DNA from: Trueperaceae bacterium
Lineage (GTDB): Bacteria > Deinococcota > Deinococci > Deinococcales > Trueperaceae
DNA: 42,076 nt
Reading direction: 5' to 3'
NCBI GenBank assembly: GCA_036381035.1
Contig: DASVDQ010000079.1
Coordinates: forward strand, 1-42,076
Part shown: one piece after another, positions 13,326 to 36,993 of the stretch
Position numbering within the stretch: the first letter of the stretch is position 1
Layout: each line of letters opens with the position of its first letter
Notes under the pieces: generated by a model
What the model saw: the letters and a program-made list of their open reading frames with translations, nothing else
The model's database searches: none
What the model was told of the DNA's origin: nothing
Made by a program: the position numbers and the translations under genes

Positions 13326-14279
13326 TCACCAGCCGCGGCTCGCGAGCAGCTCCTCCTCGGCGAGCTTGTCGATCTCGATGCCCACCATCGCCTCGCCCAG
13401 GCCCTTGGAGACCTCGGCGATGATCGCGGGGTCCTGGTAGTGGGTGACGGCCTTGACGATCGCCTCGGCGCGCCGGAACCAGGCCTGGCGGCGCTTGGCC
13501 TCGTCGACCTCGCCGGGCGCCGACTTGAAGATGCCAGAGCCGACGAACACGCCCTCGACGCCGAGCTGCATGAGAAGCGCCGCGTCGGCGGGCGTGGCGA
13601 CGCCGCCGGCGGCGAAGTTCACGACCGGCAGCTTGCCGTGCTCGTGCACGTAGACGACGAGGTCGTAGGGCGCGCCGATCTGCTTGGCGTAGGACATGAG
13701 CTCCTCGCGCGGCATGGCCTGCACCGCGCGGATCTCACCGAGGACGGCACGTGCGTGCCTGACGGCCTCGACGACGTTGCCCGTGCCGGCCTCGCCCTTG
13801 GTGCGGATCATCGCGGCGCCCTCGCCGATGCGCCTGAGCGCCTCGCCGAGGTTCGTGGCGCCGCAGACGAACGGCACCGTGAACGCGTGCTTGTCGATGT
13901 GGTGGGCCTCGTCGGCGGGGGTGAGGACCTCGGACTCGTCGATGAAGTCCACGCCGATGGCCTGCAGCACCTGCGCCTCGACGAAGTGGCCGATGCGCAC
14001 CTTCGCCATGACGGGTATCGAGACGGCCGCCATGATCTCCTCGATCAGGGCCGGGTCCGACATGCGGGCGACGCCGCCCTGCGCGCGGATGTCGGCGGGG
14101 ACGCGCTCCAGCGCCATGACGGCGACGGCGCCGGCCTGCTCGGCGATGCGCGCCTGGTCGGCGGTGACGACGTCCATGATCACGCCGCCCTTGAACATCT
14201 CCGCGAAGCCGGTCTTCACCCGCGGCGTGCCGGTCTGCCGCAGGGGCTGGTCCTGGTTATCGCCCGCTGTGCCGCTCAT
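13326..14279 (-). CDS. pdxS: Pyridoxal 5'-phosphate synthase lyase subunit PdxS
   Basis: A 317-residue (beta/alpha)8 enzyme that makes PLP from ribose 5-phosphate, glyceraldehyde 3-phosphate and ammonia. The near-invariant segments [27 protein letters not shown] and [13 protein letters not shown] (with the Schiff-base lysine) are present, as is [15 protein letters not shown]. An extra 20 or so residues precede the usual start. ATG 14279 is preferred over a GTG three codons upstream, since AAGGAG lies eight bases before the ATG and overlaps the GTG. Confidence 0.96.
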
Positions 14280-14361
14280 CCCTCGCACTCCTTACCGCCC
14301 CGTGCCGCCGGCGCAAGGGTACGCGCGAACGTCGCCGGCGGACGCCCCGGGAGCCGTGCCA

Positions 14362-16029: not shown

Positions 16030-17136
16030 TCACGCGGCCGAGCGGGTGGCCGCGTCCGGCAGGGGCAGGGTCATGTAGAAGGAGCTCCCCGAGCCCAGCG
16101 CGCTCTCGAAGCCGATCCGCCCGCCCATCGCCTCGACGAGGCCCTTCGCCACGGTGAGGCCCAGCCCGCTGCCGTGGCCGCGGCGGCTGCGCGCCGCGTC
16201 GGCCTGGTAGAAGCGCTCGAAGACGAACGGCTTGTGCTCCTCGGCGATCCCCTCGCCGGTGTCGGTCACGTAGAGCCTGACCTCGCCCCCGTCCGCCCTC
16301 GCGCCCAGCGTCACGCTGCCGCCCGCGGGCGTGTGGCGCAGGGCGTTCGAGAGGAGGTTGGAGAGGACCTGGATCATGCGGTCGCGGTCCACGTAGACCT
16401 CGGTCCGCGGGCCCGCGTCCTCGAGCCTCAGGTCCACGCCCTTGTCCTCGAAGACCGTCGTGAAGCGGTCGTAGGCGTCGAACAGGAGGTCGCCGGTGCC
16501 GCAGAGGGTGGGCCGCAGACCGACAGCGCGGGCGTCGAGCCTCGCCACCAGGAACAGGTCCTCCACGACGCGGCGCATCGCCTTCACCTCGCGGTTGATC
16601 GCCGCCGAGCCGGCCTGCGGTGACAGCACCCCGTCCGACATCGCCTCCCCGTAGCCCTGCAGGGCCGAGAGGGGCGTGCGCAGCTCGTGAGCGATGCTGG
16701 CGACCAGCTCGTTCCTCGACCGCTCGTGGCGCTCCAGCGCCTCGGCGAGCTGGTTGAAGTGCCGCGCGATCTCCGCCAGCTCGTCGCTCCCCGTCACCTT
16801 GAGGCGCTTGTCGTAGCGCCCCTCGGCCAGCTCACGGCTGGCGCGCGCCGTCCTGTCCACCACCTTGGCGATGCGCCGCGCCTCCAGGTAGGCCGTCGCG
16901 GCGGCCAGCAGGAGCGCCAGCGGCAGCGACGAGAGGAAGGCGCGGACCATCGTGCGCTGGTGCCCGTAGCTGAGCTGCTGGCGCAGCGCGATGCCGTCCT
17001 CCGTCGGCTCGACGAGGAGCTCGACGTGGTCGCGGTAGAAGAACGGTGACACGACGCCGGCCAGGACGATCAGCGACACGCTCACGACCAGGACGACGAG
17101 CAGGTGGCTCAGGAGGATGCGGGTGAACAGCCGCAT
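16030..17136 (-). CDS. Two-component sensor histidine kinase
   Basis: A 368-residue membrane kinase. TM1 spans about residues 6-28, and TM2 (LPLALLLAAATAYLEA) about 72-88, with a short periplasmic loop between. A HAMP domain follows, including the DELAEIARHFNQLAE helix. The HisKA motif SIAHELRTPLSALQGYG has the phospho-His near residue 150. The ATPase domain has the N box LSNLLSNALRHTPAGG, the G1 box DTGEGI, the F box VFERFYQ and the G2 box GSGLGLTVAKGLVE. The start at 17136 overlaps the regulator stop by one base (TGATG). The short loop suggests sensing of membrane or envelope state. Confidence 0.92.
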   Translation of the reverse strand: MRLFTRILLSHLLVVLVVSVSLIVLAGVVSPFFYRDHVELLVEPTEDGIALRQQLSYGHQRTMVRAFLSSLPLALLLAAATAYLEARRIAKVVDRTARASRELAEGRYDKRLKVTGSDELAEIARHFNQLAEALERHERSRNELVASIAHELRTPLSALQGYGEAMSDGVLSPQAGSAAINREVKAMRRVVEDLFLVARLDARAVGLRPTLCGTGDLLFDAYDRFTTVFEDKGVDLRLEDAGPRTEVYVDRDRMIQVLSNLLSNALRHTPAGGSVTLGARADGGEVRLYVTDTGEGIAEEHKPFVFERFYQADAARSRRGHGSGLGLTVAKGLVEAMGGRIGFESALGSGSSFYMTLPLPDAATRSAA

Positions 17137-17801
17137 CAGGCCTCCTTGAAGCGGTAGCCCACGCCGTGGACCGTCTCGATGAACGTGGGCCGCTCGGCCT
17201 CGTCGCCCAGCTTCCTGCGCAGGGCGGCGATGCGGACGTCCACCACCCGGGTCACGCCGGGGAAGTCCGGCCCCCACACCTTCTCGAGGAGCCGCTCGCG
17301 GTGCCAGACCATGCCGGGGTGCCGCGCCAGGACCAGCAGCAGGTCGAACTCGAGCCGCGTGAGCGGGACGGGCTGACCGTCGCGGTGGACCTCGCGGCTG
17401 GCGGAGCGGATCACCAGGCCGCCGTGGCGCAGCTCGTCGCTGGCCCCGCTGCGCCTCAGCAGCGCCTTCACGCGCGCCACGACCTCGCGCGGGCTGAACG
17501 GCTTGACCACGTAGTCGTCGGCGCCGATCTCGAGGCCGCGCACGCGGTCCTCCTCGCCGCCGCGCGCGCTGAGCATGAGGATCGGCAGCGACGGGCGCTC
17601 CTGCCTCAGGACGTCGGCGACGCGCCAGCCGTCAGTGCCGGGCAGCATCAGGTCGAGGATCACCAGCTCGGAGCCGGCGGCGAGGTCGAGCGCGCCGTCG
17701 CCCGTGGCCGCCTCGGCGACCTCGAAGCGCTCGTGCCGCAGGTACGACCTCAGCACCTCGCGGGTCGCCGGGTCGTCGTCGACGATCAGGATCCTGTGCA
17801 T
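17136..17801 (-). CDS. OmpR/PhoB-family response regulator
   Basis: A 221-residue DNA-binding regulator. The receiver domain starts MHRILIVDDDPATREVL. The phospho-acceptor is D50 (VILDLMLPG), with the switch Thr/Ser in MLSARG and the Lys in VVKPFSPRE. The C-terminal winged helix (about residues 128-221) has LTRLEFDLLLVLARHPGMV and the recognition region TRVVDVRIAALRRKLGDE. The ATG at 17801 follows GGAGG. An upstream in-frame stretch to 17957 is Arg-rich and rejected. It is the partner of the kinase that overlaps its stop codon. Confidence 0.93.
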   Translation of the reverse strand: MHRILIVDDDPATREVLRSYLRHERFEVAEAATGDGALDLAAGSELVILDLMLPGTDGWRVADVLRQERPSLPILMLSARGGEEDRVRGLEIGADDYVVKPFSPREVVARVKALLRRSGASDELRHGGLVIRSASREVHRDGQPVPLTRLEFDLLLVLARHPGMVWHRERLLEKVWGPDFPGVTRVVDVRIAALRRKLGDEAERPTFIETVHGVGYRFKEA

Positions 17802-17904
17802 GAGGCCTCCGCCCCGACCCTCCCGGTCACGCCCCCATGAGCGACGCGCAACGCCTCTCCTCCGCGCTCCCCGGATTCTAGAGGCGCTCGGCCGATGCGG
17901 CGGT

Positions 17905-18252
17905 CTACGCGTCACTCGGAGGCGGCGATGCCCGGACGCGGGGCGCGACGCTCTCACCTCCGCACTCCCGCAGCTCGTTGATCCACAGGCTCATGCCCTC
18001 GCTGTCGGCCTCGCGGTAGCACAGCGACTCGCTGAACCTGGGGAGGCCCGTCACCTCGTCGAAGCGCACGACAGGAACACCGAACGAGGTCAGCTCGAAG
18101 TAGTGGCGGTAGGCGCGTCCGGCGTCGTGGGTGAAGCGGAACCGGGCAGGGAACGCGATGCCGCCGACCGTCATCCGCCCGCGGCCGCTGGTCACGGCCG
18201 ACGTGCGCACGGGGACGGCGTCGCCGTAGAGGGCCGCGTAGAAGCGGGCCAC
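17905..18252 (-). pseudogene. Fragment of a DUF6544-like gene
   Basis: From the only available start (GTG at 18252), 115 residues can be read. Similarity to the DUF6544-type family (pattern LPxPVxRYY, then RFTHDAGRAYRHYFEL) begins upstream of that GTG, as LPPPAGLPTPVARFYAAL, where no start codon exists. The C-terminal half of the usual 250-plus residues is missing: the sequence ends soon after SLWINELRE in Pro/Ser/Arg-rich residues. Both ends thus look truncated, so I call it a remnant. The family assignment is from memory of the motif. It is divergent from the chemosensory operon. Confidence 0.4.
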
Positions 18253-18385: not shown

Positions 18386-18907
18386 TTGACTCCGCACGCC
18401 GACCCTCAGAGCCAGGCTGCGCAGGGGGAAGCCTCGCTCGTCGTCTTCGAGCTCGACGGTGACAGGTACGCCCTCGACGCCGCCATCGTCGACCGCGCCA
18501 CGCGGGCGGCGCGCCCGACCGCCTTGCCGGGCGCTCCGCCCGTCGTCCTCGGCATCGTCGACGTCCACGGGGACGTGGTGCCGGTGCTCGACGTGAGGCA
18601 GAGGTTCGGCAAGCCGCGGCGCCCCATCGCCGCCGACGACGTCCTGGTCCTCGCCAGGACCGAGCGGCGGCCGGTCGCTCTGCTCGTCGACGCCGTCGAC
18701 GGCGTCGAGTCGGTGCCGCGGGCGGCGATCGAGGTCGCCCGCGAGGTCCTGCCGGGGACGGACCTCGTCGCGGGCGTCGCGACCCTCGGAGACGGGCTGG
18801 TCCTCGTGCACGACCTCGAGAGGTTCCTGTCTCTGGACGAGCAGGCGGAGCTGGACCGCGCGCTGAACGAGCTTGGGGGACGCCGGGATGACGCGCGCGC
18901 TGACTGA
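18386..18907 (+). CDS. cheW: CheW-like coupling protein (WspB position)
   Basis: A 173-residue CheW-domain protein that should link the chemoreceptor to CheA. CheW features: VVFELDGDRYALDAAIV, LPGAPPVVLGIVDVHGDVVPVLDV (read in two parts), and the second half VALLVDAVDGVESVP. The start is TTG at 18386, since an in-frame stop lies just upstream and no ATG/GTG occurs before the domain. It is the first gene of a seven-gene cluster, and its end overlaps the CheR gene by 20 bases. Confidence 0.87.
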   Translation: MTPHADPQSQAAQGEASLVVFELDGDRYALDAAIVDRATRAARPTALPGAPPVVLGIVDVHGDVVPVLDVRQRFGKPRRPIAADDVLVLARTERRPVALLVDAVDGVESVPRAAIEVAREVLPGTDLVAGVATLGDGLVLVHDLERFLSLDEQAELDRALNELGGRRDDARAD

Positions 18908-20447
18908 GGACCTCGCCGCCGGCGTCAGCTCCCTCGTCGCCGCGCGGCTGGGCCTGGCCTTCCCGCCCAACCGCACGCGCGAGCTGGAGCAGGGCCTCAG
19001 CGAGGCCGCGCGCGAGTCGGGCAGCCGGAGCGTGGCCGCGTTCGCCGAGCGGTTGCTCGCCGCGCCGGTGGGCGCCGCCGAGCTGCGCCGCCTCGGACGG
19101 CACCTCACGATCGGCGAGACGTACTTCTTCAGGGACGCCGAGCTGTTCCGCGCCCTCGAGACCCAGGCGCTCCCGCGGCTGATCCGCGAGCGCGCCGGCA
19201 CGACGCGCCGCCTGCGGCTCTGGAGCGCCGGCTGCTCGACGGGCGAGGAGGCCTACTCGCTGGCGATCCTCCTGGCGCGCCTGCTGCCGGTCCAGGACGG
19301 CTGGTCGGTCTCGATCGTGGGGAGCGACGTGAACCCCGCGGCCGTCCGCGTCGCCGAGGCGGGCGTGTACGGCGAGTGGTCGTTCCGGGCGACGCCCGAC
19401 TGGGTGAGGCGTCGCTACTTCGTCGCCGTGGGGCGGAACGAGGTCCAGGTGGCGCCCTGGCTGCGCGAGCGCGTGAGGTTCACGGTCCACAACCTCGCCG
19501 AGGACCCGTACCCGGCGGGCGGGCCCGGGGCCGTCGACCTCGTCCTCTGCCGCAACGTGCTCATGTACTTCGCGCCCGGTCAGGCCCGGCGCGTCGTCCA
19601 GCTCTTCGGCTCCGTGCTGGCCGCGGACGGCTGGCTCGTCCCGAGCCCCTACGAGGCCTCCCCGGAGCTCTTCCGCGGCCTCGAGCGCGACAGGTCGGTC
19701 GACGTGCCCATGTACCGGCTTCCCGGGCGGGCCGAGCGCGCGCGGACCTCGCCGGCCGAGCGGGCGCGTACAGCGCTGGCCGACCGCGCGGGACCGGGCG
19801 CGGCCGCGCGCCCTACGCCGCCGCGACCCGCCGCTCCGGACACCGAGCCGCCGCGGTCGGGGACCGCCCCGCGCCCTCCGCGCCGCGCGGCCCCCGCGGG
19901 CGCCCGTCGCCTGCCCGCCGCGCCGAGGAGGGCCGCGAGCGGGGCCCGGCGGCCCGCCGCGCCCGAACGGCCCGTGAGCGGGGTCCCGCGTACCGCACCG
20001 ACCGCGGACGGCGCCGCGCTGCTACGCCTGGCCAAGGAGGCGGCCGACAGGGGGAGCGTCGACCGCGCGGCCGACCTCTGTGCCGCGGCCATCGCGTCCG
20101 CCCGGGGCGACCCCAGGGCGCGCTACCTGCTGGCGACAGTCGAGCTCGAGCGCGGCAGCCCCGAGCGGGCGGCGCGCGCCCTGAGCGAGGCGATCTACCT
20201 GGACCCCGACTTCGTCCTCGCCCACGTCGCGCTGGCCTGCCTGCGGAGCGCGCAGGGCCGCCGCGCCGACGCGCGCCGCTCCTACGCCGCCGCCCTCGCC
20301 CTGCTGCACGCCAGGCCGCCGCACGAGGAGGTCGAGGGGTCCGAGGGCCTGACCGTCCTCGACCTCATCACCCTCGTCGACGTCGCCATGTCCGAGCTGG
20401 ACGGCCGCGCACCGACGGCCCGCGCCGCCGTGGGCCCGGCCGGATGA
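18888..20447 (+). CDS. cheR: CheR methyltransferase with C-terminal TPR repeats (WspC-like)
   Basis: A 519-residue protein that should methylate receptor glutamates using SAM. Residues 1-75 are the helical CheR N-domain. The catalytic domain to about residue 275 has LTIGETYFFRD, the SAM motif LWSAGCSTGEEAYSLAI and DLVLCRNVLMYF. Residues about 277-378 are an Arg/Ala/Pro low-complexity linker with short repeats (AERART). Residues 380-480 hold TPR-like helical pairs (ARYLLATVELERGSPERAAR, YLDPDFVLAHVALACL). CheR-TPR architecture is the WspC hallmark. ATG 18888 is seven bases after GGGGGA. Its stop overlaps the next start (ATGA). Confidence 0.9.
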   Translation: MTRALTEDLAAGVSSLVAARLGLAFPPNRTRELEQGLSEAARESGSRSVAAFAERLLAAPVGAAELRRLGRHLTIGETYFFRDAELFRALETQALPRLIRERAGTTRRLRLWSAGCSTGEEAYSLAILLARLLPVQDGWSVSIVGSDVNPAAVRVAEAGVYGEWSFRATPDWVRRRYFVAVGRNEVQVAPWLRERVRFTVHNLAEDPYPAGGPGAVDLVLCRNVLMYFAPGQARRVVQLFGSVLAADGWLVPSPYEASPELFRGLERDRSVDVPMYRLPGRAERARTSPAERARTALADRAGPGAAARPTPPRPAAPDTEPPRSGTAPRPPRRAAPAGARRLPAAPRRAASGARRPAAPERPVSGVPRTAPTADGAALLRLAKEAADRGSVDRAADLCAAAIASARGDPRARYLLATVELERGSPERAARALSEAIYLDPDFVLAHVALACLRSAQGRRADARRSYAAALALLHARPPHEEVEGSEGLTVLDLITLVDVAMSELDGRAPTARAAVGPAG

Positions 20448-21091
20448 GCCGCCCCGGGCGCACGGGAGGCGCGGAGGCGAGCCAGAGCCGCGCGGAGTGG
20501 TGGGACTCCGTCAAGGCCCGCCTGGCCGCGGCGACGAGGGAGCCGACCCCAGAAGAGGTGGGCAGGCTGCTGGCCGCGCGGGCGCGCGAGCTCGCCGCGC
20601 CGCTGGAGCCGGAGCGGGCGACCGGCGAGCTGCTTGACCACCTGGTGGTGGCGGTGGCCGGCGGCAGGTTCGCCGTCCCCGCCGCGTACGTGGGAGCCGT
20701 GCTGCCGCTCGGCCGCGTGACGCGCCTGCCCGGGACGCCGCCGTTCGTCCTGGGGCTCGCTCACCACCGCGGCGACGTGGTCTCTGTCCTCGACGCCGGG
20801 CGCCTCCTGGGCGTCTCCGGGGCGCGTCCCCCGGAGGGCGGCTTCCTCGTGCTGCTGCAGGAGGGAGAGATGCGCTTCGGCCTGGCCGTCGAGGACGTCC
20901 CCGGCGTGGAGGCGCTGGGGCGGGACGAGGTCGAGCCCGTACCGGCCGGCTCGGGCTGGGGCGGCGCCTACGCCTCCGGGGTCGCGCCCGGCGGCCTCGT
21001 CGTGCTCGACGCCGCGCGCCTGCTGGGCGACGAGGCCCTGATCGTCGGACATGACACCTTCCACCCTGCCCAGGAGGAGCAGACGACATGA
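20444..21091 (+). CDS. cheW: Second CheW-like coupling protein (WspD position)
   Basis: A 215-residue protein. The first 60 residues are a helical extension (EWWDSVKARLAAATREPT), followed by a CheW domain: LVVAVAGGRFAVPAAYVGAV, LPGTPPFVLGLAHHRGDVVS, then FGLAVEDVPGVEAL. The extended N-terminus fits WspD, which is also longer than WspB. The ATG at 20444 overlaps the CheR stop, and its own stop overlaps the receptor start. Having two CheW proteins in one cluster is normal for Wsp-type systems. Confidence 0.85.
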   Translation: MSRPGRTGGAEASQSRAEWWDSVKARLAAATREPTPEEVGRLLAARARELAAPLEPERATGELLDHLVVAVAGGRFAVPAAYVGAVLPLGRVTRLPGTPPFVLGLAHHRGDVVSVLDAGRLLGVSGARPPEGGFLVLLQEGEMRFGLAVEDVPGVEALGRDEVEPVPAGSGWGGAYASGVAPGGLVVLDAARLLGDEALIVGHDTFHPAQEEQTT

Positions 21092-22545
21092 CCATCAGCC
21101 GCAGGTTGTTCCTCGGGTACGCCGTCGTGCTCGCGGTCTTCGCCCTCGTCACGGCGATCGCGATCTACAGCGTCAACGGCATACGCGCGCAGTACGAGGA
21201 GCTGAGCACGCGCGCCGAGCGCGCCGCCGACGTCGCGAACACCCTGGCGCTGCGCGTGCGCGACCAGGTGATCGACTTCCGCGGCGTCCTCCTCTACCCC
21301 TCCCTCGCCGCAGAGTTCCGGGAGGGCCTGGCGACGGCTCGCGCCGAGTTCGACGCCGCCCTGGAGTCGCTCCGCCAGCTCGGCCTGACGCCGCAGGAGG
21401 AGGCCCTCCTCGAGGAGATCGCCGCCCGCGAGCGGGAGCTGGCAGAGGGCCAGGACCGCTTCCTCGCGGAGGCGGTGACCGGCGACGACGGCGGGGTCGA
21501 GCGCTCGGAGGTGGAGCTCGCGGGACCCACCTCTGCCGTGCTCGACCTGGTCGGCGAGCTCCGTTCGCTGCAGGCCCAGGAGGTGGGCGACGCGCGCGTG
21601 GCGACGGCGCGGGCGGTCCGGTCGATCACCATCACGATGCTCGTCGTGGGCGGCATCGCCATCGTCGTGGGCCTGGCCACGGCCTTCTACCTCGGCCGGG
21701 CGATCACGAGGCCATTGAGGGAGGGCGTACTGCAGCTCACCGCCGCGGCCTCGCAGATCCTGGCCACGACCGCCGAGGTCGCCGCCGCCACGGCCGAGAG
21801 CGCCGGAGCCGTGAGCGAGACGACGGCGACGGTCGAGGAGGTGAAGCAGACCTCCCAGGTCGCGACGGACAAGGCCAAGCAGGTCGCCGACAGCGCGCGC
21901 CGCATGTCGGAGGTCGCGCAGGCCGGGCGGGACTCCATCGAGCGGACGATCGACGGCATGCACGACATCCAGGAGCAGATGAGCCTGATCGCCAGCACGA
22001 TCGTGCAGCTCGCCGAGCAGAGCCAGGCCATCGGCGAGATCGTCGCCACCGTCAACGACCTGGCCGAGCAGTCCAACCTGCTGGCCGTGAACGCGGCGAT
22101 CGAGGCGACGCGGGCGGGCGAGCACGGCAAGGGCTTCGCGGTCGTGGCGCAGGAGGTCAAGAGCCTGGCCGTCCAGTCGAAGCAGGCCACGGCCCAGGTG
22201 CGCACGCTGCTCGCCGACGTGCAGAAGGCGACCAACGCGGCGGTACTCGCCGCCGAGCAGGGCGACAAGGCCGTCGAGACCGGCGTCAAGCAGACGCTGG
22301 CGACCGGCGAGGTCATCAACACCCTGGCCGAGACCGTCGCCGCGGCGGCCGACGCGGCCACGCAGATCGTCGGCTCGAACCAGCAGCAGATGGTCGGCAT
22401 GGACCAGGTCGCGCTGGCCATGGAGAACATCAAGCAGGCGAGCTCCCAGAACGTCGCGGGGACGCGCCAGGCCGAGGCCGCGGCGCGCGACCTGCAGGAG
22501 CTCGCCAAGAGCATCCGCAGGCTCATCTCGACAGAGGAGGCCTGA
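21088..22545 (+). CDS. Methyl-accepting chemotaxis protein (WspA-like receptor)
   Basis: A 485-residue transmembrane receptor. TM1 is at residues 6-28, an acidic helical periplasmic domain at about 29-175 and TM2 at about 178-202. The cytoplasmic part leads directly from ITRPLREGVLQL into the coiled-coil signalling domain, so a full HAMP domain is not evident. The hairpin tip (EIVATVNDLAEQSNLLAVNA, IEATRAGEHGKGFAVVAQEV) at about 315-360 is standard and is where CheA and CheW dock. There is no C-terminal CheR-tether pentapeptide. Its placement inside the operon, with CheR-TPR and CheB, points to methylation-controlled sensing. Confidence 0.92.
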   Translation: MTISRRLFLGYAVVLAVFALVTAIAIYSVNGIRAQYEELSTRAERAADVANTLALRVRDQVIDFRGVLLYPSLAAEFREGLATARAEFDAALESLRQLGLTPQEEALLEEIAARERELAEGQDRFLAEAVTGDDGGVERSEVELAGPTSAVLDLVGELRSLQAQEVGDARVATARAVRSITITMLVVGGIAIVVGLATAFYLGRAITRPLREGVLQLTAAASQILATTAEVAAATAESAGAVSETTATVEEVKQTSQVATDKAKQVADSARRMSEVAQAGRDSIERTIDGMHDIQEQMSLIASTIVQLAEQSQAIGEIVATVNDLAEQSNLLAVNAAIEATRAGEHGKGFAVVAQEVKSLAVQSKQATAQVRTLLADVQKATNAAVLAAEQGDKAVETGVKQTLATGEVINTLAETVAAAADAATQIVGSNQQQMVGMDQVALAMENIKQASSQNVAGTRQAEAAARDLQELAKSIRRLISTEEA

Positions 22546-22569
22546 CCCCGCCGAGGCGGCGGTAGCGAG

Positions 22570-24825
22570 ATGAGCGACGCGGAGCTACTGAGGCGCCTCC
22601 TGGCGACCTTCTCCGCCGAGGCGGAGGAGAGGCTCGCCGCGATGTCAGCCGGCCTGTCGGCCCTGGCGGCCGGGGACCGCGATGCCGTCGAGTCCCTGTT
22701 CAGGGAGGCCCACAACCTCAAGGGCGCCGCGCGCGCCGTGAACATGACCGGCTTCGAGGCGGTCTGCCAGGCGCTCGAGAGCGTCCTCTCCGACGTCAAG
22801 CGCGACCGCCTGGCCGTCACGGCGGAGCTGACCGCCCTGCTGCAGCAGTCCGTCGACGAGCTGACGGCGATGCTCGCGGCCGGCGACACGGACACGCAGG
22901 CGGTCGAGCGCCTCGTGGGACGCCTCGAGGGAGCCGTCACGGGCGCCTGGGTCGAGCCCGCGGTCGGCGCCGTCGACGCGGCGCACGCCCTCGTGCCGCT
23001 CGCGCCCGAGCCGAGCGCGCCGGCGGCGGCGAGCGAGGCGCGGCGGGGCGGCGCGTCGCGCACGACCCAGGGCTCGGTGCGGGTCTCCACCGCGAAGCTC
23101 GACGAGGTGCTGTCGGACGTCGAGGCCCTCATGGAGCCCCGCCTGGAGGCCGAGCGCCTGGCCGCCCAGCTGGGGGAGGCGGTAGCTGCGGCCGTCGCCG
23201 CGGACGAGGAGCGGGCGCGGGCGCGCGCCGTGCTCCGCGACCTCGAGCGCCGGCTGCCCCCGGACGGCGAGGGCCTGGCGGCAGCGCTGCGCCGGGCCGC
23301 GGCGCTCCTCGAGCCGCCGCGCGGACGCGACCGGCTGGGTGCGCGGCTGGCGCAGCTCGCGCACGCGGCCGAGGACCACGCCCGCACCCTCCGCCGGCTC
23401 GGCACCAGCCTCTACGCCGACGTCAGGGAGCTCCAGGCCGTCGCCTTCTCGACCGTCCTCCAGCCGCTGGCGCGCACGGTCCGCGAGATGGCCCGCGCCC
23501 GGGGCAAGGACGTGAGGCTGGCGTTGGAGGGGGCGGACATCAGGGTCGACCGCGGGGTCCTCGAGGCGGTTAGGGACCCCCTGCTGCACCTGCTGCGCAA
23601 CGCCGTCGACCACGGCATCGAGGCGCCCGAGGTCCGCGCCGCCGCCGGCAAGCCGCGGCAGGGCACGGTCCGCGTCGGCGTGGCGCCCAGGGACGGCGCG
23701 ACGGTCGAGGTCGTCGTCGCCGACGACGGCGCCGGCATCGACCTGGACGCGCTGCGCCGGGCCGCCGCCGACCTCCTGGGCGTAGCTGACCGGGCCGACC
23801 TCACGGAGCGCGACCTCATCGAGCTCGCCTTCCGCTCCGGCGTCACGACCAGCCCGGTCATCACCGACCTCTCGGGCCGCGGCCTGGGGCTCGCGATCGT
23901 CCGCGAGCGCGTCGAGCAGGTAGGGGGGCGCGTGGAGGTCGAGACGAGGGCCGGCCGGGGCACGGAGTTCAGGCTCACGCTGCCGCTGGTGCTCGCCACG
24001 TTCAGGGGCGTGGTGGTCCGCCTCGGCGAGGACGCGTTCGTGGTCCCGTCCGCCGGCGTGGACCGGGTCCTGAGGGTGCGCCCCGACGACCTGCACGGCG
24101 CCGGCGACCGCCGGACCGTCGAGGTTGACGGCGCGCAGGTCGGCTGGGCGAGGCTCGACCAGCTGCTCGGCCTGCCGGCGACCGAGGCGGCGGGGGCGGA
24201 GTGGTCCGTCGCCGTCGTGGTCGCTGGTCCGCCGCGGGTGGCGCTCGAGGTCGACGAGGTCATCGAAGAGCGCGAGGTGGTCGTGAAGCCCCTGGGCCCG
24301 CAGCTGAGGCGCGTCAGGCACCTCGCCGGTGCCACCGTCCTGCCCGACGGTCGGGTGGCTCCGGTCCTGAACGTCCCGGACGTCCTCCAGGCGCTGAGCA
24401 CGGCCGTCAGGGCGACCGGCCGGCCGGAGCGCGCGGGCCGGGACGACGCCGACGGGGCGCCCCGGCGCGTGCTCGTGGTCGAGGACTCGATCACCTCGCG
24501 CTCGCTGTTCAAGGGGATACTGGAGGCCGCCGGGTACAGGGTCACCACGGCCGTCGACGGGATCGACGCGTTCCTGAAGCTGGAAGCGGAGCCGATAGAC
24601 CTGATCGTCACCGACGTCGACATGCCGAGGCTCAACGGCCTCGAGCTCACCGCCCGCGTCCGCGCCGACAAGCGCTTCGCCGAGCTGCCCGTCATCCTCA
24701 TCACGAGCCTGGGCTCCCCGCTCGACGTCGAGCGGGGCGTCGAGGCCGGCGCGAACGCGTACATCGTCAAGAGCGAGTTCGACCAGCGCGGCATGCTCGA
24801 CACGGTGCGGCGGCTGATCGGATGA
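22570..24825 (+). CDS. cheA: Hybrid CheA histidine kinase with C-terminal receiver (WspE-like)
   Basis: A 751-residue kinase. The HPt domain has the phospho-acceptor H48 (EAHNLKGAARA). The coiled dimerisation part covers about 170-320. The ATPase region has LLHLLRNAVDHGIEAP, the G1 box VADDGAGID and the G2 box LSGRGLGLAIVRERVEQ. A CheW-like regulatory domain covers about 475-610 (LVLATFRGVVVRLGEDAFVV). The receiver domain covers 632-751 (RVLVVEDSITSRSLFK), with D682 in VTDVDMPR and K in YIVKSEF. CheA-REC without a separate CheY is the WspE/FrzE architecture. The start is ATG 22570 with a weak Shine-Dalgarno, and its end overlaps cheB (GATGA). Confidence 0.92.
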   Translation: MSDAELLRRLLATFSAEAEERLAAMSAGLSALAAGDRDAVESLFREAHNLKGAARAVNMTGFEAVCQALESVLSDVKRDRLAVTAELTALLQQSVDELTAMLAAGDTDTQAVERLVGRLEGAVTGAWVEPAVGAVDAAHALVPLAPEPSAPAAASEARRGGASRTTQGSVRVSTAKLDEVLSDVEALMEPRLEAERLAAQLGEAVAAAVAADEERARARAVLRDLERRLPPDGEGLAAALRRAAALLEPPRGRDRLGARLAQLAHAAEDHARTLRRLGTSLYADVRELQAVAFSTVLQPLARTVREMARARGKDVRLALEGADIRVDRGVLEAVRDPLLHLLRNAVDHGIEAPEVRAAAGKPRQGTVRVGVAPRDGATVEVVVADDGAGIDLDALRRAAADLLGVADRADLTERDLIELAFRSGVTTSPVITDLSGRGLGLAIVRERVEQVGGRVEVETRAGRGTEFRLTLPLVLATFRGVVVRLGEDAFVVPSAGVDRVLRVRPDDLHGAGDRRTVEVDGAQVGWARLDQLLGLPATEAAGAEWSVAVVVAGPPRVALEVDEVIEEREVVVKPLGPQLRRVRHLAGATVLPDGRVAPVLNVPDVLQALSTAVRATGRPERAGRDDADGAPRRVLVVEDSITSRSLFKGILEAAGYRVTTAVDGIDAFLKLEAEPIDLIVTDVDMPRLNGLELTARVRADKRFAELPVILITSLGSPLDVERGVEAGANAYIVKSEFDQRGMLDTVRRLIG

Positions 24826-25898
24826 ACGGGCGGCTCAGGGTGCTGGTGGTCGAGGACTCGCCGGTGGCGCGCGAGCTGCTCGTGCACGTGCTGGGCGCGG
24901 ACCCGCGGCTCACGGTCGTGGGCACCGCCGCCGACGGCGAGCAGGCCGTGGACGCCGTGCGCCGCCTGCGGCCCGACGTCGTCACGATGGACCTGCACAT
25001 GCCGCGGATGAACGGCGTGCAGGCGACGAAGCGGATCATGGAGACGCAGCCCACCCCGATCGTCGTCGTGAGCGGGAGCGTGGAGCCGGTGGAGGTGGCC
25101 ACGGCGATGGCCGCGATCGAGGCCGGCGCCCTCGTCGCCGTGCCCCGCCCGCCGGGCCCCGGTCACCCGGACCACCGCGCCTCGGCCGAGTCGCTCCGCA
25201 GGACCGTGAGGCTGATGGCGGAGGTCAAGCCGGTGCGTCGCTGGCCGGAGGAGCGCAGGTCCCGCGCGGCCGCTCGCGCCGCCGGCCCGGCGGGCGCCCT
25301 CGCCAGGGGAGCGCGCGTGCGCGCGGTGGGCATCGGTGCGTCGACTGGCGGCCCGCCGGCGCTGCGCACCGTCCTCGCCGCGCTGGGCTCGGGGCTCCCC
25401 GTGCCGGTCCTCGTCGTGCAGCACATGTCGCCCGGGTTCATCGAGGGGCTCGCCAGGTGGCTGGAGGACGCGACCGGCCTGCCGGTCCGCGTCGCGTCCG
25501 ACGGCGACAGGCTCGTCGCCGGGCACGTCTACCTCGCCCCCGACGAGCGGGAGATGGGCGTGACCCCGGAGGGTCGCGTCGCCCTCACGTCGAGCGCGGC
25601 GCGCCCGGGCCTCAGGCCCTCTGTGGGCCACCTGTTCCGCTCGCTGAGGGACGTGTACGGGGCCGGGGTCGTGGGCGTGCTGCTCACGGGCATGGGCAGG
25701 GACGGCGCCGCGGAGCTCAGGGAGCTGAGGGAGGCGGGCGCCGTCACCATCGCGCAGGACCAGGCGTCGTCGGTGGTCCACGGGATGCCGGGGGAGGCGA
25801 TCCGCCTCGATGGGGCCAGCCACGTGCTGCCACTCGAGGAGATCGGGCCGGCCGTGAGGCGCCTCGCGACGGCGACGGGACCGGGAAGGCAGGGGTAG
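24822..25898 (+). CDS. cheB: CheB methylesterase response regulator (WspF-like)
   Basis: A 358-residue protein that removes receptor methyl groups when phosphorylated, opposing CheR. The receiver domain (residues 4-120) has D57 in VTMDLHMPR. The basic linker is followed by the esterase domain, with S174 (GIGASTGGP), H201 (VVQHM) and D294 (TGMGRDGA) as the catalytic triad. The ATG at 24822 overlaps the cheA stop. In Pseudomonas the homologue WspF resets the receptor, and losing it locks the output on. The same logic is expected here. Confidence 0.94.
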   Translation: MNGRLRVLVVEDSPVARELLVHVLGADPRLTVVGTAADGEQAVDAVRRLRPDVVTMDLHMPRMNGVQATKRIMETQPTPIVVVSGSVEPVEVATAMAAIEAGALVAVPRPPGPGHPDHRASAESLRRTVRLMAEVKPVRRWPEERRSRAAARAAGPAGALARGARVRAVGIGASTGGPPALRTVLAALGSGLPVPVLVVQHMSPGFIEGLARWLEDATGLPVRVASDGDRLVAGHVYLAPDEREMGVTPEGRVALTSSAARPGLRPSVGHLFRSLRDVYGAGVVGVLLTGMGRDGAAELRELREAGAVTIAQDQASSVVHGMPGEAIRLDGASHVLPLEEIGPAVRRLATATGPGRQG

Positions 25899-25900
25899 GG

Positions 25901-28741
25901 ATGGAGGAGATGGCAAGCGGAGGACCGGGGGGCCGCCTGATCCTCGTGGCCGAGGACAGCCGCACCGAGGCGGAGGGCCTGCGCGTCCTGCTCGAGCAGG
26001 AGGGCTACGAGGTGGTGTGGGCGGCCGACGGGCGTCAGGCGCTGGAACTGGCGCGGAAACGCCGCCCCGACGTGATCATCAGCGACATCGTCATGCCCGA
26101 GCTGGACGGCTACGGGCTGTGCCGGTCCGTGAAGGACGACCCCCGGCTCTCCGACGTGCCCGTCATGCTGGTCACCACGCTGTCCGAGCCCTCCGACGTG
26201 ATCAAGGGCCTCGAGGCCGGCGCCGACCACTTCATCCGCAAGCCGTACCGCGCCCGCTACCTCCTGTCGCGGCTCAACTACCTGATGGCCAACAGGGCGC
26301 TCCGCGAGGACCAGCGCATGCAGATGGGCCTCGAGCTGCGCCTGGGGGGCAAGACGCACTTCATAAGCGCTCAGCGCCAGCAGATCCTCGACCTGCTGAT
26401 CTCGACGTTCGAGCAGGCGGTGGACCTCAACGCCGAGCTGGTGCGCAAGCAGCGCGAGGTGACGCAGGCGAACCTCGTGCTCGCCCGCCTCTACGGCCTG
26501 GCCAGGGCCCTGAACCAGGCCGCCTCGACCTCGGAGGTCGTGGAGGTCGCGCGGCGACGGCTGTCCGAGATGCCGGGCGTCGCGGCGGTCGACGTGGCCG
26601 TGAGGGGCGGCGAAGGCGACGCGCCGGACGCCGGCGCCGGGGGACCGGCGTCCGCCGCGGGCGTGCCCATCAGGCTGCCGCTGGTGTCGCGCGGGCAGGA
26701 GGTCGCGTCGATCTCGCTGACGTGGACGGGCGGGGAGCTCGACCCGGCCACGCGCGCTCGCCTCGCCGCCCTGGCCGACCAGGTGGCGGTGGCTCTCGAC
26801 CGCGCGACGCTCTACGAGGGGCTCGAGAGGCTGGTGGACGAGCGCACGGCGGCGCTCACGGCCGAGGTCGAGGAGCGCCAGAGGCAGGAGGCCAGGGTCG
26901 CCAGGCTGAACCGGTACTACTCCGTCCTCAGCCAGATCAACACGACGATCGTGAGGGTGCGGACCCGGCGCGAGCTCTTCGAGCGCGCGTGCGCCACCGC
27001 GGTCGAGAAGGGCGGCTTCGCCTTCGCGTGGATCGGCACGTACGCGGCCGACGGCGGCGCGCTGGTGCCGGAGGCCAGCGCGGGCGGCGACGACCGCTTC
27101 CGAAGCCTCATCGACCTGGGCGCGGCGGAGCCGGCGGGCACGGGCTTCGCGCCGGGCACCGAGCGCGAGGTCGAGCCGCTGGTATGGGACGACACCGGCG
27201 CGGGTCGCCCCGAGGTGCCGTGGTCCGACGCCGCCCTCGCGCTGGGGTGCCGCTCCGCGGTGGTCCTGCCGCTGCGCTCGGAGTCCCGCCTGGTGGGCGC
27301 CTTCACGCTGTTCGCCGCCGAGACCGGCGTGTTCGACGACAGGGAGATGGGCCTGCTGACGGAGATCGCGGCCGACGTCTCCTTCGCGCTCGACTACATC
27401 AGGAACGAGGAGAAGATCCGCGAGCTCGCCTACTTCGACAGCGTCTCGGGGCTGCCGAACGCCGCCTACCTCGCGGAGTGGCTCGGGTCGGCCCACGACC
27501 CCTCCGAGCCGGGCCACCACCCCCCGCGGACAGCGCCGGCCGGCGTGGTCGTCGTGGGCCTCGACCGCTTCCAGGCCATCAACTACAGCCTCGGCAAGGA
27601 CGTGGGCGACGAGCTGCTGCGCGCCGTGGGCGAGCGCATGCGCGAGGTGGCTCCCTTCGGGGCGGTCGTCGCCCGGCTGCGGGGGGACAAGTTCGCCCTG
27701 GCGGTGCGGGGCGGCGACGCCGACGCCGCCGACGCCTACGCGCGCCGCCTGATCGCCGCGCTGTCGCTCCCGTTCACGGTGGGTCAGCACGAGGACCTGT
27801 TCGTGGGCGCGAGCGCCGGGGTCGCCGTCTGCGGCGAGGCCGACGCCGGCGCCGAGGAGCTCGTGCAGCGCGCGGAGATCGCGATGTACCGCGCCAGGCA
27901 GGACCGCCCCGGCGGCTACCTGAAGCACTCGGCCGCGATGAGCGCCGAGGCCGAGGAGCGCCTCGAGCTGGAGAACGCCCTGCGCAACGCCGTGGCGGCG
28001 CGCGAGCTGACGCTGCACTACCAGCCCGTCGTCGACCTCGCCACGAGGCGCCTCGACGCCGTCGAGGCGCTCGTCAGGTGGGAGCGGCCCGGCGTCGGCC
28101 CGGTGTCGCCGGCGAGGTTCATCCCGCTGGCCGAGGAGACGGGCATCATCACGGCCCTGGGGGCGTGGGTGATCGAGGCGGCCAGCGCCCAGGCGAGGGC
28201 CTGGAGCGAGGACGGCCGCACCCCGCCCCGCGTGGCCATCAACCTCTCCGCCCGCCAGTTCCACCAGCCGGACCTCTACGAGCAGGTCATGGAGACCATC
28301 GCACGCACCGGCGTCGACCCGCGCCTGCTGACGTTCGAGATCACCGAGAGCCACCTCATGCACGACGTGGAGGCGTCGCGCACCGTGATGGCCCGGCTCG
28401 TCGAGAAGGGGCTGCGGTTCTCGCTCGACGACTTCGGCACCGGCTACTCGAGCCTCGCCTACATCTCGGGGCTCCCGATCACCAGCCTGAAGATCGACCG
28501 CTCCTTCGTGCGGGACCTCGGCGCCGGCACCAAGCAGCGAGCGATCGTGGAGGCGATGATCTCGATGGCCAAGAGCCTCGGCCTCAAGGTCATAGCGGAG
28601 GGCGTGGAGACGAGGGAGCAGCTCGAGTTCCTCGAGGCGCTCGGCTGCGACGCCGTGCAGGGCTACTACTTCGCGCGTCCGCTGCCGGCAGCGGACCTCG
28701 ATCGCTACCGCGAGGGCCGGCTCGGCCCCGCGGCGGTCTGA
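25901..28741 (+). CDS. REC-GAF-GAF-GGDEF(degenerate)-EAL response regulator, predicted c-di-GMP phosphodiesterase
   Basis: A 946-residue output protein of the cluster. The receiver (residues 12-130) has D62 (IISDIVMPEL) and K in FIRKPYRA. GAF-like domains are at about 190-305 and 351-500, separated by a coiled coil. The GGDEF domain is at about 506-670: its signature reads R594-G-D-K-F598, and the upstream motif reads FQAINYSLGKDVGDELL (N-D to N-Y, GH to GK), so cyclase activity is unlikely. The EAL domain (702-940) is complete: E722-A-L, NLSARQF, FEITES, DDFGTGYSSL, LKIDRSFV, IAEGVET and QGYYFARP. Start ATG 25901 is two bases after cheB with AGGGG upstream. It replaces the WspR cyclase. Confidence 0.9.
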   Translation: MEEMASGGPGGRLILVAEDSRTEAEGLRVLLEQEGYEVVWAADGRQALELARKRRPDVIISDIVMPELDGYGLCRSVKDDPRLSDVPVMLVTTLSEPSDVIKGLEAGADHFIRKPYRARYLLSRLNYLMANRALREDQRMQMGLELRLGGKTHFISAQRQQILDLLISTFEQAVDLNAELVRKQREVTQANLVLARLYGLARALNQAASTSEVVEVARRRLSEMPGVAAVDVAVRGGEGDAPDAGAGGPASAAGVPIRLPLVSRGQEVASISLTWTGGELDPATRARLAALADQVAVALDRATLYEGLERLVDERTAALTAEVEERQRQEARVARLNRYYSVLSQINTTIVRVRTRRELFERACATAVEKGGFAFAWIGTYAADGGALVPEASAGGDDRFRSLIDLGAAEPAGTGFAPGTEREVEPLVWDDTGAGRPEVPWSDAALALGCRSAVVLPLRSESRLVGAFTLFAAETGVFDDREMGLLTEIAADVSFALDYIRNEEKIRELAYFDSVSGLPNAAYLAEWLGSAHDPSEPGHHPPRTAPAGVVVVGLDRFQAINYSLGKDVGDELLRAVGERMREVAPFGAVVARLRGDKFALAVRGGDADAADAYARRLIAALSLPFTVGQHEDLFVGASAGVAVCGEADAGAEELVQRAEIAMYRARQDRPGGYLKHSAAMSAEAEERLELENALRNAVAARELTLHYQPVVDLATRRLDAVEALVRWERPGVGPVSPARFIPLAEETGIITALGAWVIEAASAQARAWSEDGRTPPRVAINLSARQFHQPDLYEQVMETIARTGVDPRLLTFEITESHLMHDVEASRTVMARLVEKGLRFSLDDFGTGYSSLAYISGLPITSLKIDRSFVRDLGAGTKQRAIVEAMISMAKSLGLKVIAEGVETREQLEFLEALGCDAVQGYYFARPLPAADLDRYREGRLGPAAV

Positions 28742-28839: not shown

Positions 28840-30015
28840 TCAAGCCCCGACCAGGCGCACCTCGGGGCTCGCGAACGCGACCTCGCCGGACCTGACCGTG
28901 AGCAGGCAGGCGAACCGCCGCTCGGCGACCCTCTCGATCCCGCGCGAGTCCCAGACCCTCAGCGGGCGGTCCTCGAGCCGCAGCACGGCGATGTCGGCCG
29001 GCGCGCCCACGTCTAGAGCGCCCGAGACCCCGGGAGGCTGCGAGCGCCCCGTGGCTCCCCGCAGCACGCCGGACGGCAGCGCGGTGACCGCGCGCAGGAC
29101 CCGCTCGAGCGTCTCGCCCGCGGCGAGCGCCTTCGCCATCACGGTGGTCATGTCGAAGGCCGGCCCCAGCACGGACCGCCGGTGCAGGTCGGTGCTGATG
29201 ACGGCCGGCGGGAGGCCGGAGCGCGCCCACGCCTCGGCGGCCGGGAACGAGAAGCTGCCGCTGCCGTGCCCCACGTCCAGCACGACGCCCCGCTCGACCG
29301 CCGCGACGGCCTCGGGGCGCGGGCGCCCGTCCTCGCCGACCACGCAGTTGTCGTAGGGGGTGAAGCAGTGGGTGAGGACGTCGCCGGCGCGCAGGTGGTC
29401 GAGCACGGTGGCCAGGTCGGGCGGCGCCTCGCTCACGTGGACCATGACCTTGAGGCCGGTCTCGTCGGCGGCGCGGCGGACGGCGGCCAGCGCCGCGGCG
29501 GCGTTGGGGCCGACCGTGTTCGGCGAGGCCCGCAGCTTGAAGCCCACGACGAGGTCGGGGTGCTCGCGCGCCACGCGCACGGCGGCCTCGACGTCGAGGG
29601 CCGCTGGCGACAGCAGCTCGCCGGATGGAGCGGCCAGCCCGCCGGCGGCGACGTTCAGGAACGCGAGCGCCCTGACCCGGGCGGCGCGCAGCCGCGGGGC
29701 CAGGCCGGCGAACGTGTACGGCCCGGCGCTGCCGGCGTCCACGACGGTCGTGACGCCGCTCCGCAGGCTGACCTCGTCGACGTCGATGCCCCAGTAGGTG
29801 GCGCCGGGGTAGGCGTGCACGTGCAGGTCCACCAGGCCGGGCAGCGCCAGCGCGCCCGCCAGGTCGGCGGACCGCGGCGCCAGCGCCGGGTCGATGCGGT
29901 CCTCCACGGCGGCGATCACCCCGCCCGCGACGCCCACGTCGGCGCGTCGCCACGCGCCGTCCGGCCCCGGCACGCGGCCCCCGTGCAGGACGAGGTCGTA
30001 GGCGCGGGTCGTCAC
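28840..30015 (-). CDS. Amidohydrolase/deacetylase family metallohydrolase
   Basis: A 391-residue amidohydrolase-superfamily enzyme with a two-metal site. H65 and H67 are in LVDLHVHAYPG, the probable carboxylated K160 is in VVGFKLRAS, H193 in MVHVSE, H216 in LTHCFTP and D276 in VISTDLHRR. A small beta domain surrounds the barrel (the N-terminal strands and the C-terminal LLTVRSGEV). The sequence fits the dihydroorotase-like 'amidohydrolase/deacetylase' subgroup that includes N-acyl and carbamoyl-type hydrolases; the substrate is unknown. The start is GTG at 30015, four bases after the amidase stop, so both enzymes probably act in one pathway. Confidence 0.85.
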   Translation of the reverse strand: MTTRAYDLVLHGGRVPGPDGAWRRADVGVAGGVIAAVEDRIDPALAPRSADLAGALALPGLVDLHVHAYPGATYWGIDVDEVSLRSGVTTVVDAGSAGPYTFAGLAPRLRAARVRALAFLNVAAGGLAAPSGELLSPAALDVEAAVRVAREHPDLVVGFKLRASPNTVGPNAAAALAAVRRAADETGLKVMVHVSEAPPDLATVLDHLRAGDVLTHCFTPYDNCVVGEDGRPRPEAVAAVERGVVLDVGHGSGSFSFPAAEAWARSGLPPAVISTDLHRRSVLGPAFDMTTVMAKALAAGETLERVLRAVTALPSGVLRGATGRSQPPGVSGALDVGAPADIAVLRLEDRPLRVWDSRGIERVAERRFACLLTVRSGEVAFASPEVRLVGA

Positions 30016-30019
30016 GGGC

Positions 30020-31711
30020 TCAACCCGCTACCAGGCTCGCCATCCGGTCCAGGTCGGGGAAGGCCGGCAGCGCGAAGGCGCCGGAGAGCTGCCGCGCCGC
30101 GCGCAGCAGCTCGAACTCGCCGCCCACGGACCCGACGAGCTGCATGCCGATCGGCAGGCCCTCGTCGCTCAGGCCGACCGGCAGCGACACGCCCGGGTGG
30201 CCGGAGATGTTGAAGGGCGAGGTGTAGGCGGCGTTGCCGCCGCGGCGGTGCGTCTCGGGGTTCCGCGCTGTCGAGGTCCGCGTCACCGGGCTGGTGGGCG
30301 TGAGGATGACGTCTACGTCCGCGAGCACCGCGTCCACCTCCCGGCGCACCAGCTCGCCGACGCGCAGGGCGTGGAGGTAGTCGGCGGCGGTGAGGCAGGC
30401 GCCGGGCAGGTTGTAGAAGGCGGCGCTGGCGCCGTAGCGGCCGCGGTCCTTGGCGGGCCCCTCGTGGTCGAAGTAGTGCTCGGCCGCGATGACGACGAAG
30501 TTCGCCCTGACGCCGTCGCGGAGGATGCTCAAGGTGGGCGGCGGCAGGCGTACCACCTCGTGGCCGAGGTCCTCCACGGCGCGCACCGTGGCGTCGAACG
30601 CCGCCCGCACCGAGTCCTCCATGCCCACCTCGGCGACGTAGCCCTCGGGCACGGCCACGCGCAGCCCGCGCGGAGAGGAGCGCACGTGCTCGACCCAGGC
30701 GGCCGGCTCCAGGCGCAGGCGCTCGGCGGCGCCGTCCTCGTCTGGGTCGATCAGCAGGGCGGCCAGTACCGCCGCCGCGTCCTCGGCGGCGCGGGCGAGC
30801 ACGCTGACCTCGGAGACGCGCCCCTCCGAGACGCCCGCCGACGGCACCCGTCCGTGGCCCGGCTTGAGCCCGAACAGCAGGTGCTGCCCGGCGGGCAGGC
30901 GTGCCGAGCCGCCGCCGTCGGTGCCGAGGGCGAACATCGCCAGGCCGGACGCCAGCGCCGCGCCGCCGCCGCTGCTCGAGCCGACCGAGTACTCCTCGGG
31001 CAGCCAGGGGTTCCGCGGCGGCGGGTTGAGGTCGTCCTCGCGCGGCAGGCTCCAGCCGAACTCGTTGAGGTTGTGCTTCCCGACCAGCACGGCGCCGGCG
31101 GCGCGGAGGCGGCGCACGGCCTCGGCGTCGCGTCGCGGGCGCCAGTCGCGCGTGAGCGGAGAGTTGTACGTGCAGCGCAGGCCCGCGGCCGGGATGCTGT
31201 CCTTGGCGCCGAACGGTACGCCGTGCAGCAGGCTGCGCAGCCCTTGCGTCGCCAGCTCGTCGGTGAGCCTGGCGGACGCGGCCAGGGCGCCCTGCCCGTC
31301 CACGGTGACGTAGCTGCGCACGGCACCGTCGTAGCGGGCGATCCGCTCGAGCTGGGCGTGCACGAGGTCGAGCGGGGTGAGGTCGCCCCGGGCCAGCGCG
31401 CTCGCGGCGTCGGTGAGGCTGCCGAGGAGGACTTCGTCGGGCACGGGCCGCGGCCGGCCGGGTCCCGGCGGCGGCGCGAGCTCCTCCGCGCGTTCCCGAC
31501 CTGGGCGGTTCGCGTAGGCGGCCCGCAGGGGCAGGGCCTCTCGCAGCCCCTCGAGGCCGGGCGTCGCGACCTCGCGCAGGCGGTCGGCGAGGTCCCACGT
31601 GTCCCTCACGTACTCCACCAACCGCGCCCGCTCGTCGGCGCTCAGGTCCAGCTTGGCTCGCGCGGCGAACGCGGCGACGATCGCGTGCGGGTCGGGAACC
31701 TGGTCGGACAT
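30020..31711 (-). CDS. Amidase-signature enzyme with fused AtzG/GatC-like N-terminal domain
   Basis: A 563-residue protein. Residues 1-75 (IVAAFAARAKLDLSADERAR, YVRDTWDLADRLREVA) resemble the small AtzG/GatC-type subunit that normally partners an amidase. Residues about 95-560 form an amidase-signature domain with the Ser-cisSer-Lys triad: K170 (FGAKDSI), the cis-Ser in VGSSSGGG (245-247) and the nucleophile S269 (GTDGGGSARLPAG). Related AtzE enzymes act in ureido/biuret breakdown. The fusion suggests a similar small-amide substrate, but GatA-like or other amides are possible. The ATG at 31711 uses a Shine-Dalgarno (TAGGAGG) that overlaps the stop codon of the short upstream ORF. Confidence 0.85.
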   Translation of the reverse strand: MSDQVPDPHAIVAAFAARAKLDLSADERARLVEYVRDTWDLADRLREVATPGLEGLREALPLRAAYANRPGRERAEELAPPPGPGRPRPVPDEVLLGSLTDAASALARGDLTPLDLVHAQLERIARYDGAVRSYVTVDGQGALAASARLTDELATQGLRSLLHGVPFGAKDSIPAAGLRCTYNSPLTRDWRPRRDAEAVRRLRAAGAVLVGKHNLNEFGWSLPREDDLNPPPRNPWLPEEYSVGSSSGGGAALASGLAMFALGTDGGGSARLPAGQHLLFGLKPGHGRVPSAGVSEGRVSEVSVLARAAEDAAAVLAALLIDPDEDGAAERLRLEPAAWVEHVRSSPRGLRVAVPEGYVAEVGMEDSVRAAFDATVRAVEDLGHEVVRLPPPTLSILRDGVRANFVVIAAEHYFDHEGPAKDRGRYGASAAFYNLPGACLTAADYLHALRVGELVRREVDAVLADVDVILTPTSPVTRTSTARNPETHRRGGNAAYTSPFNISGHPGVSLPVGLSDEGLPIGMQLVGSVGGEFELLRAARQLSGAFALPAFPDLDRMASLVAG

Positions 31712-31720
31712 CGCTGCCTC

Positions 31721-32886: not shown

Positions 32887-32895
32887 GGAGGAAGC

Positions 32896-34167: not shown

Positions 34168-34179
34168 TCGCCGCTCGCC

Positions 34180-34212
34180 CCCGGGGCGCCGCGCTCAGGC
34201 GGGCGCCCCGGG
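34180..34212. promoter_or_regulatory. Intercistronic stem-loop after the sugar-binding-protein gene
   Basis: CCCGGGGCGCC (34180-34190) and GGCGCCCCGGG (34202-34212) form a perfect 11-bp stem with an 11-base loop, 13 bases after the stop codon. No T-run follows. It probably protects or attenuates the message so the binding protein is made in excess over the permeases. Confidence 0.5.
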
Positions 34213-36985: not shown

Positions 36986-36993
36986 GGCCCGCC

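Follow-up and report, generated by a model that had tools for sequence, protein, structure and literature searches.

The window analysed here is the whole of contig DASVDQ010000079.1 (42,076 nucleotides) from the genome of a Trueperaceae bacterium (GCA_036381035.1). It encodes a seven-gene chemosensory cluster (18386-28741) that ends in a predicted cyclic di-GMP (c-di-GMP) phosphodiesterase. The genes are closely packed on the forward strand and, by Pfam, encode CheW, CheR with tetratricopeptide repeats (TPR), CheW, a chemoreceptor (methyl-accepting chemotaxis protein, MCP), CheA with a receiver (REC) domain, CheB and a REC-GAF-GGDEF-EAL regulator, in that order. The original prediction of seven chemosensory genes at this place is borne out, with a Pfam match for each, as is its statement that the component set is that of the Wsp system (MCP, two CheW, CheR-TPR, CheA-REC, CheB and a multidomain regulator). 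Its further claim, that this is a Wsp system with a rearranged gene order, does not hold. Judged by sequence, the cluster is a complete system of the alternative cellular function (ACF) class, in a lineage separate from Wsp, and represents a new variant of that class rather than a Wsp system of reversed sign.

The chemosensory genes and the receptor

The first coupling protein gene (18386-18907; Pfam CheW 6.9e-26) starts with TTG. The CheR methyltransferase gene that follows (18888-20447, ATG start) has a strong domain match (Pfam CheR 2.5e-41); matches to its C-terminal TPR repeats (TPR_16 and TPR_19) are weak and fall below the curated cut-offs, yet several TPR families concur. We then identified the second CheW (20444-21091; Pfam CheW 5.3e-25), the receptor (21088-22545), the CheA kinase (22570-24825), the CheB methylesterase with its REC domain (24822-25898; Pfam CheB 3.5e-59) and the output regulator (25901-28741). 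The first three junctions overlap by 20, 4 and 4 bases; 24 bases separate the receptor and CheA genes, the CheA and CheB genes overlap by 4, and 2 bases lie in front of the output gene. CheA consists of Hpt, ATPase, CheW and C-terminal REC domains. From motif positions, CheA retains the Hpt histidine (His48) and the ATP-site boxes, CheB retains Ser-His-Asp, and the phospho-acceptor Asp is present in the receivers of the cluster.

The receptor has two membrane helices, a periplasmic four-helix bundle and a signalling domain (Pfam MCPsignal 3.6e-35; 4HB_MCP borderline; hydropathy). AlphaFold predicts helices at residues 30-175, with a local confidence (pLDDT) of about 60-92. The second membrane helix joins the signalling helix directly, with no HAMP domain in between. 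Pfam finds HAMP in WspA and in some receptors of the lineage to which the window cluster belongs; it is absent from the window receptor and from those of three related loci (L188_8128, L002_7732 and L025; locus numbers are our own). HAMP-less receptors occur in several clusters of the lineage, while paralogues in those same clusters carry HAMP. By sequence, no solved structure is a meaningful relative of the periplasmic sensor region, which is 36% identical to its nearest counterpart (L188). Sensor domains vary across the lineage (4HB, CHASE3). Thus, the stimulus is not conserved, and cannot be carried over from Wsp. The original prediction had proposed sensing of the surface or envelope. We find this unsupported: HAMP is missing, and alignment of the sensor region with that of WspA gives no more than 14-17% identity.

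The output protein and the sign of the response

The output gene begins with ATG at 25901, and residues are numbered from this Met. Its REC domain (25934-26275; Pfam Response_reg 1.2e-26) carries the phospho-acceptor Asp62 within an invariant S61 D62 pair. The GGDEF signature position (27680-27694) reads RGDKF, rather than the GG(D/E)EF of diguanylate cyclases. In the EAL domain (27974-28681; Pfam 6.3e-79), the catalytic and metal-binding residues of a c-di-GMP phosphodiesterase are complete (E722, N781, E813, E816, D843, D844, K864, E900 and Q920) and invariant among four homologues. The architecture had been given as REC-GAF-GAF-GGDEF-EAL. The intact EAL and degenerate GGDEF of that description stand; its two GAF domains require qualification, as Pfam detects one, and full-length alignment with relatives reveals two, the first shortened by about 45 residues.

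A CheA search of 84,980 species genomes yielded at least 80 loci, whose neighbourhoods were annotated with profiles built for this analysis. A REC-GAF-GAF-GGDEF-EAL output is encoded in five of these (L002, L025, L188, L190 and L004, the contig of the last beginning at cheA), and the window output is 42-43% identical to the outputs of its lineage across about 930 residues. GGDEF is degenerate in all six outputs compared (RGDKF, SADSY, SADYF, STDHF, ADDRF and SADYF) and the EAL residues are retained in each, as expected under selection for a function as phosphodiesterase only. The window EAL domain shares about 38-48% identity with EAL phosphodiesterases of solved structure, and the structure model matches the folds of MorA, MucR, BifA and PdeA. 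In the AlphaFold models of output and receptor, single domains are confident; given the low overall pTM (0.36), we make no claim on how the domains of either protein are arranged. Thus, we predict that the output enzyme is a c-di-GMP phosphodiesterase.

In two of the related loci, one or two GGDEF cyclase genes (HAMP-GGDEF, PAS-GGDEF) lie between cheA and cheB (L002:12372-15340 and L004:2507-4195). An opposing cyclase may therefore be part of the system in these organisms. Other members of the lineage (L005, L189 and L191) have as their output a histidine kinase with a fused receiver. The front end of two of these proteins is 42-46% identical to that of the window output, over the receiver and linker in L005 and over the receiver, linker and first GAF (residues 8-332) in L189. 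From these alignments, it is the effector, kinase or phosphodiesterase, that is exchanged behind a conserved receiver-linker-GAF front end.

The genes probably encode an adaptive, non-Wsp ACF system in which CheA drives the EAL output and kinase activation lowers c-di-GMP. The HAMP-less four-helix-bundle receptor, arrayed with two CheW proteins and CheA, would set kinase activity, with adaptation via methylation of the receptor by CheR-TPR and demethylation by CheB. CheA would pass phosphate to CheB and to the output receiver, and phosphorylation of the latter would alter EAL activity, most likely upward. The sign of regulation and the stimulus are the weakest steps in this scheme. The original prediction held that the system would lower c-di-GMP; the enzyme type fits, whereas the direction in which kinase activation shifts the response is not readable from sequence.

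Control through the receiver, GAF and dead GGDEF domains could go either way, and phosphorylation might inhibit the EAL domain, so that kinase activation raises c-di-GMP as in Wsp. We consider this unlikely, though worth keeping in mind. One precedent points the other way: in Pseudomonas, phosphorylation of CheA promotes the activity of the phosphodiesterase Pch, linking an active kinase to less c-di-GMP (PMC3861689).

It is distinctly improbable that the EAL domain is a non-enzymatic c-di-GMP sensor of the LapD or FimX type, with an output that acts by binding a partner. Tandem GGDEF-EAL receptors of similar shape exist, and the matches by sequence or fold include LapD and FimX. However, their scores are far lower than those of the nearest solved relatives, which are described as phosphodiesterases, and the catalytic residues are complete in the window protein and its relatives.

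Kinase phylogeny and coexistence with Wsp

Could the cluster still be a true Wsp system that senses surface contact, with the receptor gene moved and WspR replaced by a phosphodiesterase? The seven-component set, including two CheW proteins and CheR-TPR, is shared with Wsp, and CheA is about 33-36% identical to WspE. However, a tree of 89 kinases places the window kinase outside the WspE clade, which takes in relatives from other phyla and is supported at 100/100. The window kinase groups instead with the phosphodiesterase-output lineage and with L005, L006 and L029 (85/93 to 93/91). The outcome was unchanged when 52 kinases were sampled anew; the kinase trees also give 93/89 for the placement of the window in this lineage. 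Constraining the window kinase into the Wsp clade cost 44 log-likelihood units (approximately unbiased (AU) test, p = 0.029). One group member, L006, is titled Methanoculleus; it comes from an archaeal bin, may be a misbinned contig and is not used in the argument.

The rest of the cluster follows the kinase. CheA is 42-49% identical to the best-matching lineage members among the loci listed, and all comparable cluster proteins are nearer to the phosphodiesterase-output lineage than to Wsp. In its signalling domain, the receptor shares 63-68% identity with those of phosphodiesterase-output members and 26-31% with WspA, and it has the four-helix-bundle sensor of WspA-type receptors without their HAMP domain. 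Wsp systems have the order wspA-B-C-D-E-F-R, with the receptor first, and an output that is either the REC-GGDEF cyclase WspR or WspH (PMC8552884). Loci from Pseudomonas, the Burkholderia group and similar organisms have this order (receptor, CheW, CheR, CheW, CheA, CheB, REC-GGDEF). The window cluster has neither the Wsp order nor a Wsp output, and its best matches among the loci listed share its own order (CheW, CheR, CheW, receptor, CheA, CheB, output). The receptor had been described as moved to fourth place. This is unproven and probably backwards, as the receptor is fourth in most of the non-Wsp relatives found.

Flagellar kinases, Chp kinases and the pilus-type kinases of Deinococcota fall into other clades, none of which includes the window kinase. 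A grouping with flagellar CheA, which the original prediction had named as evidence against itself, was thus not found, and assignment of the cluster to the ACF class is supported by the CheR-TPR fusion, the CheA-REC kinase, the placement of that kinase outside the flagellar and Chp clades, and the presence of a multidomain response regulator in the cluster (a criterion of PMC3447774).

Both kinds of system occur together in single genomes. In both Dyella subtropica and Massilia phosphatilytica, a further kinase falls within the WspE clade, and the genes around it make up a canonical Wsp cluster with a REC-GGEEF protein at its end. The same genomes contain an EAL-output cluster (L025 in Dyella, L029 in Massilia). 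Thus, the two are parallel systems of opposite enzyme type. Of the two genomes, D. subtropica is the cleaner case, as the Massilia output differs (REC-GAF-GGDEF-EAL-REC) and the Massilia kinase has a long branch. With the kinase, receptor, CheB and output in a different lineage, and with both systems in one genome, it is very improbable that the window cluster is a true Wsp system. Membership in Wsp is rejected by the kinase trees in two samplings, the AU test, the receptor and whole-cluster identities, and the gene order.

Host genome and comparison with known systems

The host genome (3.43 Mb) is 96% complete and 0.44% contaminated. It had been described as Deinococcota-like, and the phylum is confirmed by two proteins. 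RpoB is most similar to that of Thermus (1568 bits, compared to 1192 for the next group), and PilB aligns end to end with T. thermophilus PilF (1055 bits, compared to 462). Contamination by a proteobacterial contig has next to no probability and is rejected on composition and a contig marker: the nearest relatives of the cluster are proteobacterial and only one of the 111 Deinococcota genomes searched has the system, but the tetranucleotide correlation with other contigs of the genome is 0.99, GC is 75% and GC at third codon positions is 0.92-0.97 (the correlation is 0.79-0.84 and GC 60% for proteobacterial loci), and pdxS on the same contig has its best PDB match in 2zbt.

The system is thus an exception in the Deinococcota rather than a trait of the phylum. 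The ACF-like kinases of other Deinococcota (our families f2 and f5) form a different group. Therefore, as far as sampled, the window system was seemingly not inherited from a Deinococcota ancestor. Lateral acquisition, old enough for composition to have adapted, is the likeliest origin suggested by these comparisons. A different ACF-like cluster is found in other Deinococcota (L126, L125 and L128; in L126 the order is CheW, CheR, CheW, MCP, CheA, CheB). No output regulator was recognised beside cheB in the regions of these clusters that were inspected.

We searched the host genome family by family. The window cluster is its only chemosensory system: single-family searches found one MCP and one CheB, both those of the window. 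The same kind of search found no match to FliG or to PilZ in the genome. With a sole MCP and CheB and no FliG match, it is very improbable that the array controls flagella, and a role in flagellar chemotaxis was rejected. The genome encodes 13 GGDEF domains, about seven EAL genes and type IV pilus ATPases. The PilB gene (L171:1-2664) adjoins a pilT-like gene and encodes three MshEN domains. This ATPase arrangement has so far been reported only from the Deinococcus-Thermus phylum, and the GSPII-B domain of Thermus PilF binds c-di-GMP and influences twitching and adhesion (PMC11731258). Host PilB is a candidate c-di-GMP receptor. With an MshEN ATPase in the genome and no FliG found, PilB would be a likely target of the pathway, which may tune attachment or twitching via type IV pili.

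Several observations count against this overall interpretation. Within its group, the window kinase has a long branch (0.7-0.8), and deeper support for the group is moderate (84-93). The AU p value is not far under 0.05, and the group was defined with the tree already in view. The histidine kinase outputs of some lineage members indicate that the output is swappable. Complete EAL residues are no proof of activity, and members of the lineage are known from sequence alone. Phosphorylation could inhibit the EAL domain or control localisation. The pilus link is based solely on the presence of the gene in the genome.

Genes around the cluster have varied predicted functions. A two-component pair (sensor kinase and OmpR-type response regulator; 16030-17957, reverse strand) is divergent from the cluster. 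The pdxS gene (13329-14291, reverse strand) encodes a pyridoxal phosphate synthase of the SOR/SNZ family; its best match, 2zbt, is presumably from T. thermophilus. An amidohydrolase-family gene adjoining an amidase gene (28840-31720, reverse strand) is convergent with the cluster. Genes for a solute-binding protein, a mandelate racemase/enolase-family protein and a 2-keto-3-deoxygalactonokinase (32887-42074) are likely a sugar acid (galactonate-type) catabolic operon.

Among known systems, the Pseudomonadota ACF clusters (L025 of Dyella subtropica, L002, L004, L188 and L190) resemble the window most closely. They share its gene order where complete, the degenerate-GGDEF output architecture, and identity in the receptor signalling domain (63-68%), CheA (42-49%) and CheB (53-60%). 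In some members there is a second receptor, a receptor with HAMP or CHASE3, a PAS segment inserted into the output or, as noted for L002 and L004, GGDEF genes between cheA and cheB. The window cluster has none of these extras, and its first GAF is shortened.

Wsp of Pseudomonas, and its WspH variant in Burkholderia, share the component set with its multidomain response regulator. Unlike the window system, they belong to a separate kinase clade, have operons that start with a HAMP receptor, and end in a REC-GGDEF cyclase or hybrid kinase. All Wsp systems in the set of a 2021 study use WspR or WspH (PMC8552884). A 2012 census of clusters with CheR-TPR counted regulators with EAL (one) and with GGDEF and EAL (two), with PAS or GAF added in some (PMC3447774). 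As such outputs had been tallied there, the window cluster is a variant within the ACF class. That census includes no functional work on EAL outputs and defines no lineage, and 'Deinococc' is absent from its main text. We found no functional study of such clusters in the open literature, most subscription papers being outside the search.

CheA and Pch (DipA) of Pseudomonas aeruginosa are the nearest functional parallel, a chemotaxis kinase that promotes a degenerate-GGDEF phosphodiesterase and lowers c-di-GMP (PMC3861689). Unlike the window output, Pch lacks a receiver; it is recruited as part of a complex with the machinery of flagellar chemotaxis. RocR and PvrR are also phosphodiesterase regulators with receiver and EAL domains, without the GAF or GGDEF part. 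They are served by classical sensor kinases, not by a chemoreceptor array.

Wsp is the model for a chemoreceptor array that feeds c-di-GMP signalling, and does so via a cyclase. A related, conserved system with a phosphodiesterase output would mean that evolution has fitted the opposite enzyme to the same machinery, keeping the front end and exchanging the effector. We tentatively suggest, as a possibility short of an even chance, a kind of counter-Wsp: a conserved ACF lineage of adapting array pathways in which the kinase activates a dedicated phosphodiesterase. It would operate beside true Wsp in Dyella subtropica and Massilia phosphatilytica, with a single c-di-GMP pool under two arrays whose outputs are opposed, and in one Deinococcota lineage it would have been acquired alone and coupled to the pilus. 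As two named bacteria have both systems, the push-pull idea lends itself to direct testing. The Deinococcota genome, in which there is a single array and a PilF-type candidate c-di-GMP receptor, and in which neither FliG nor PilZ was found, offers a simple setting for finding the target.

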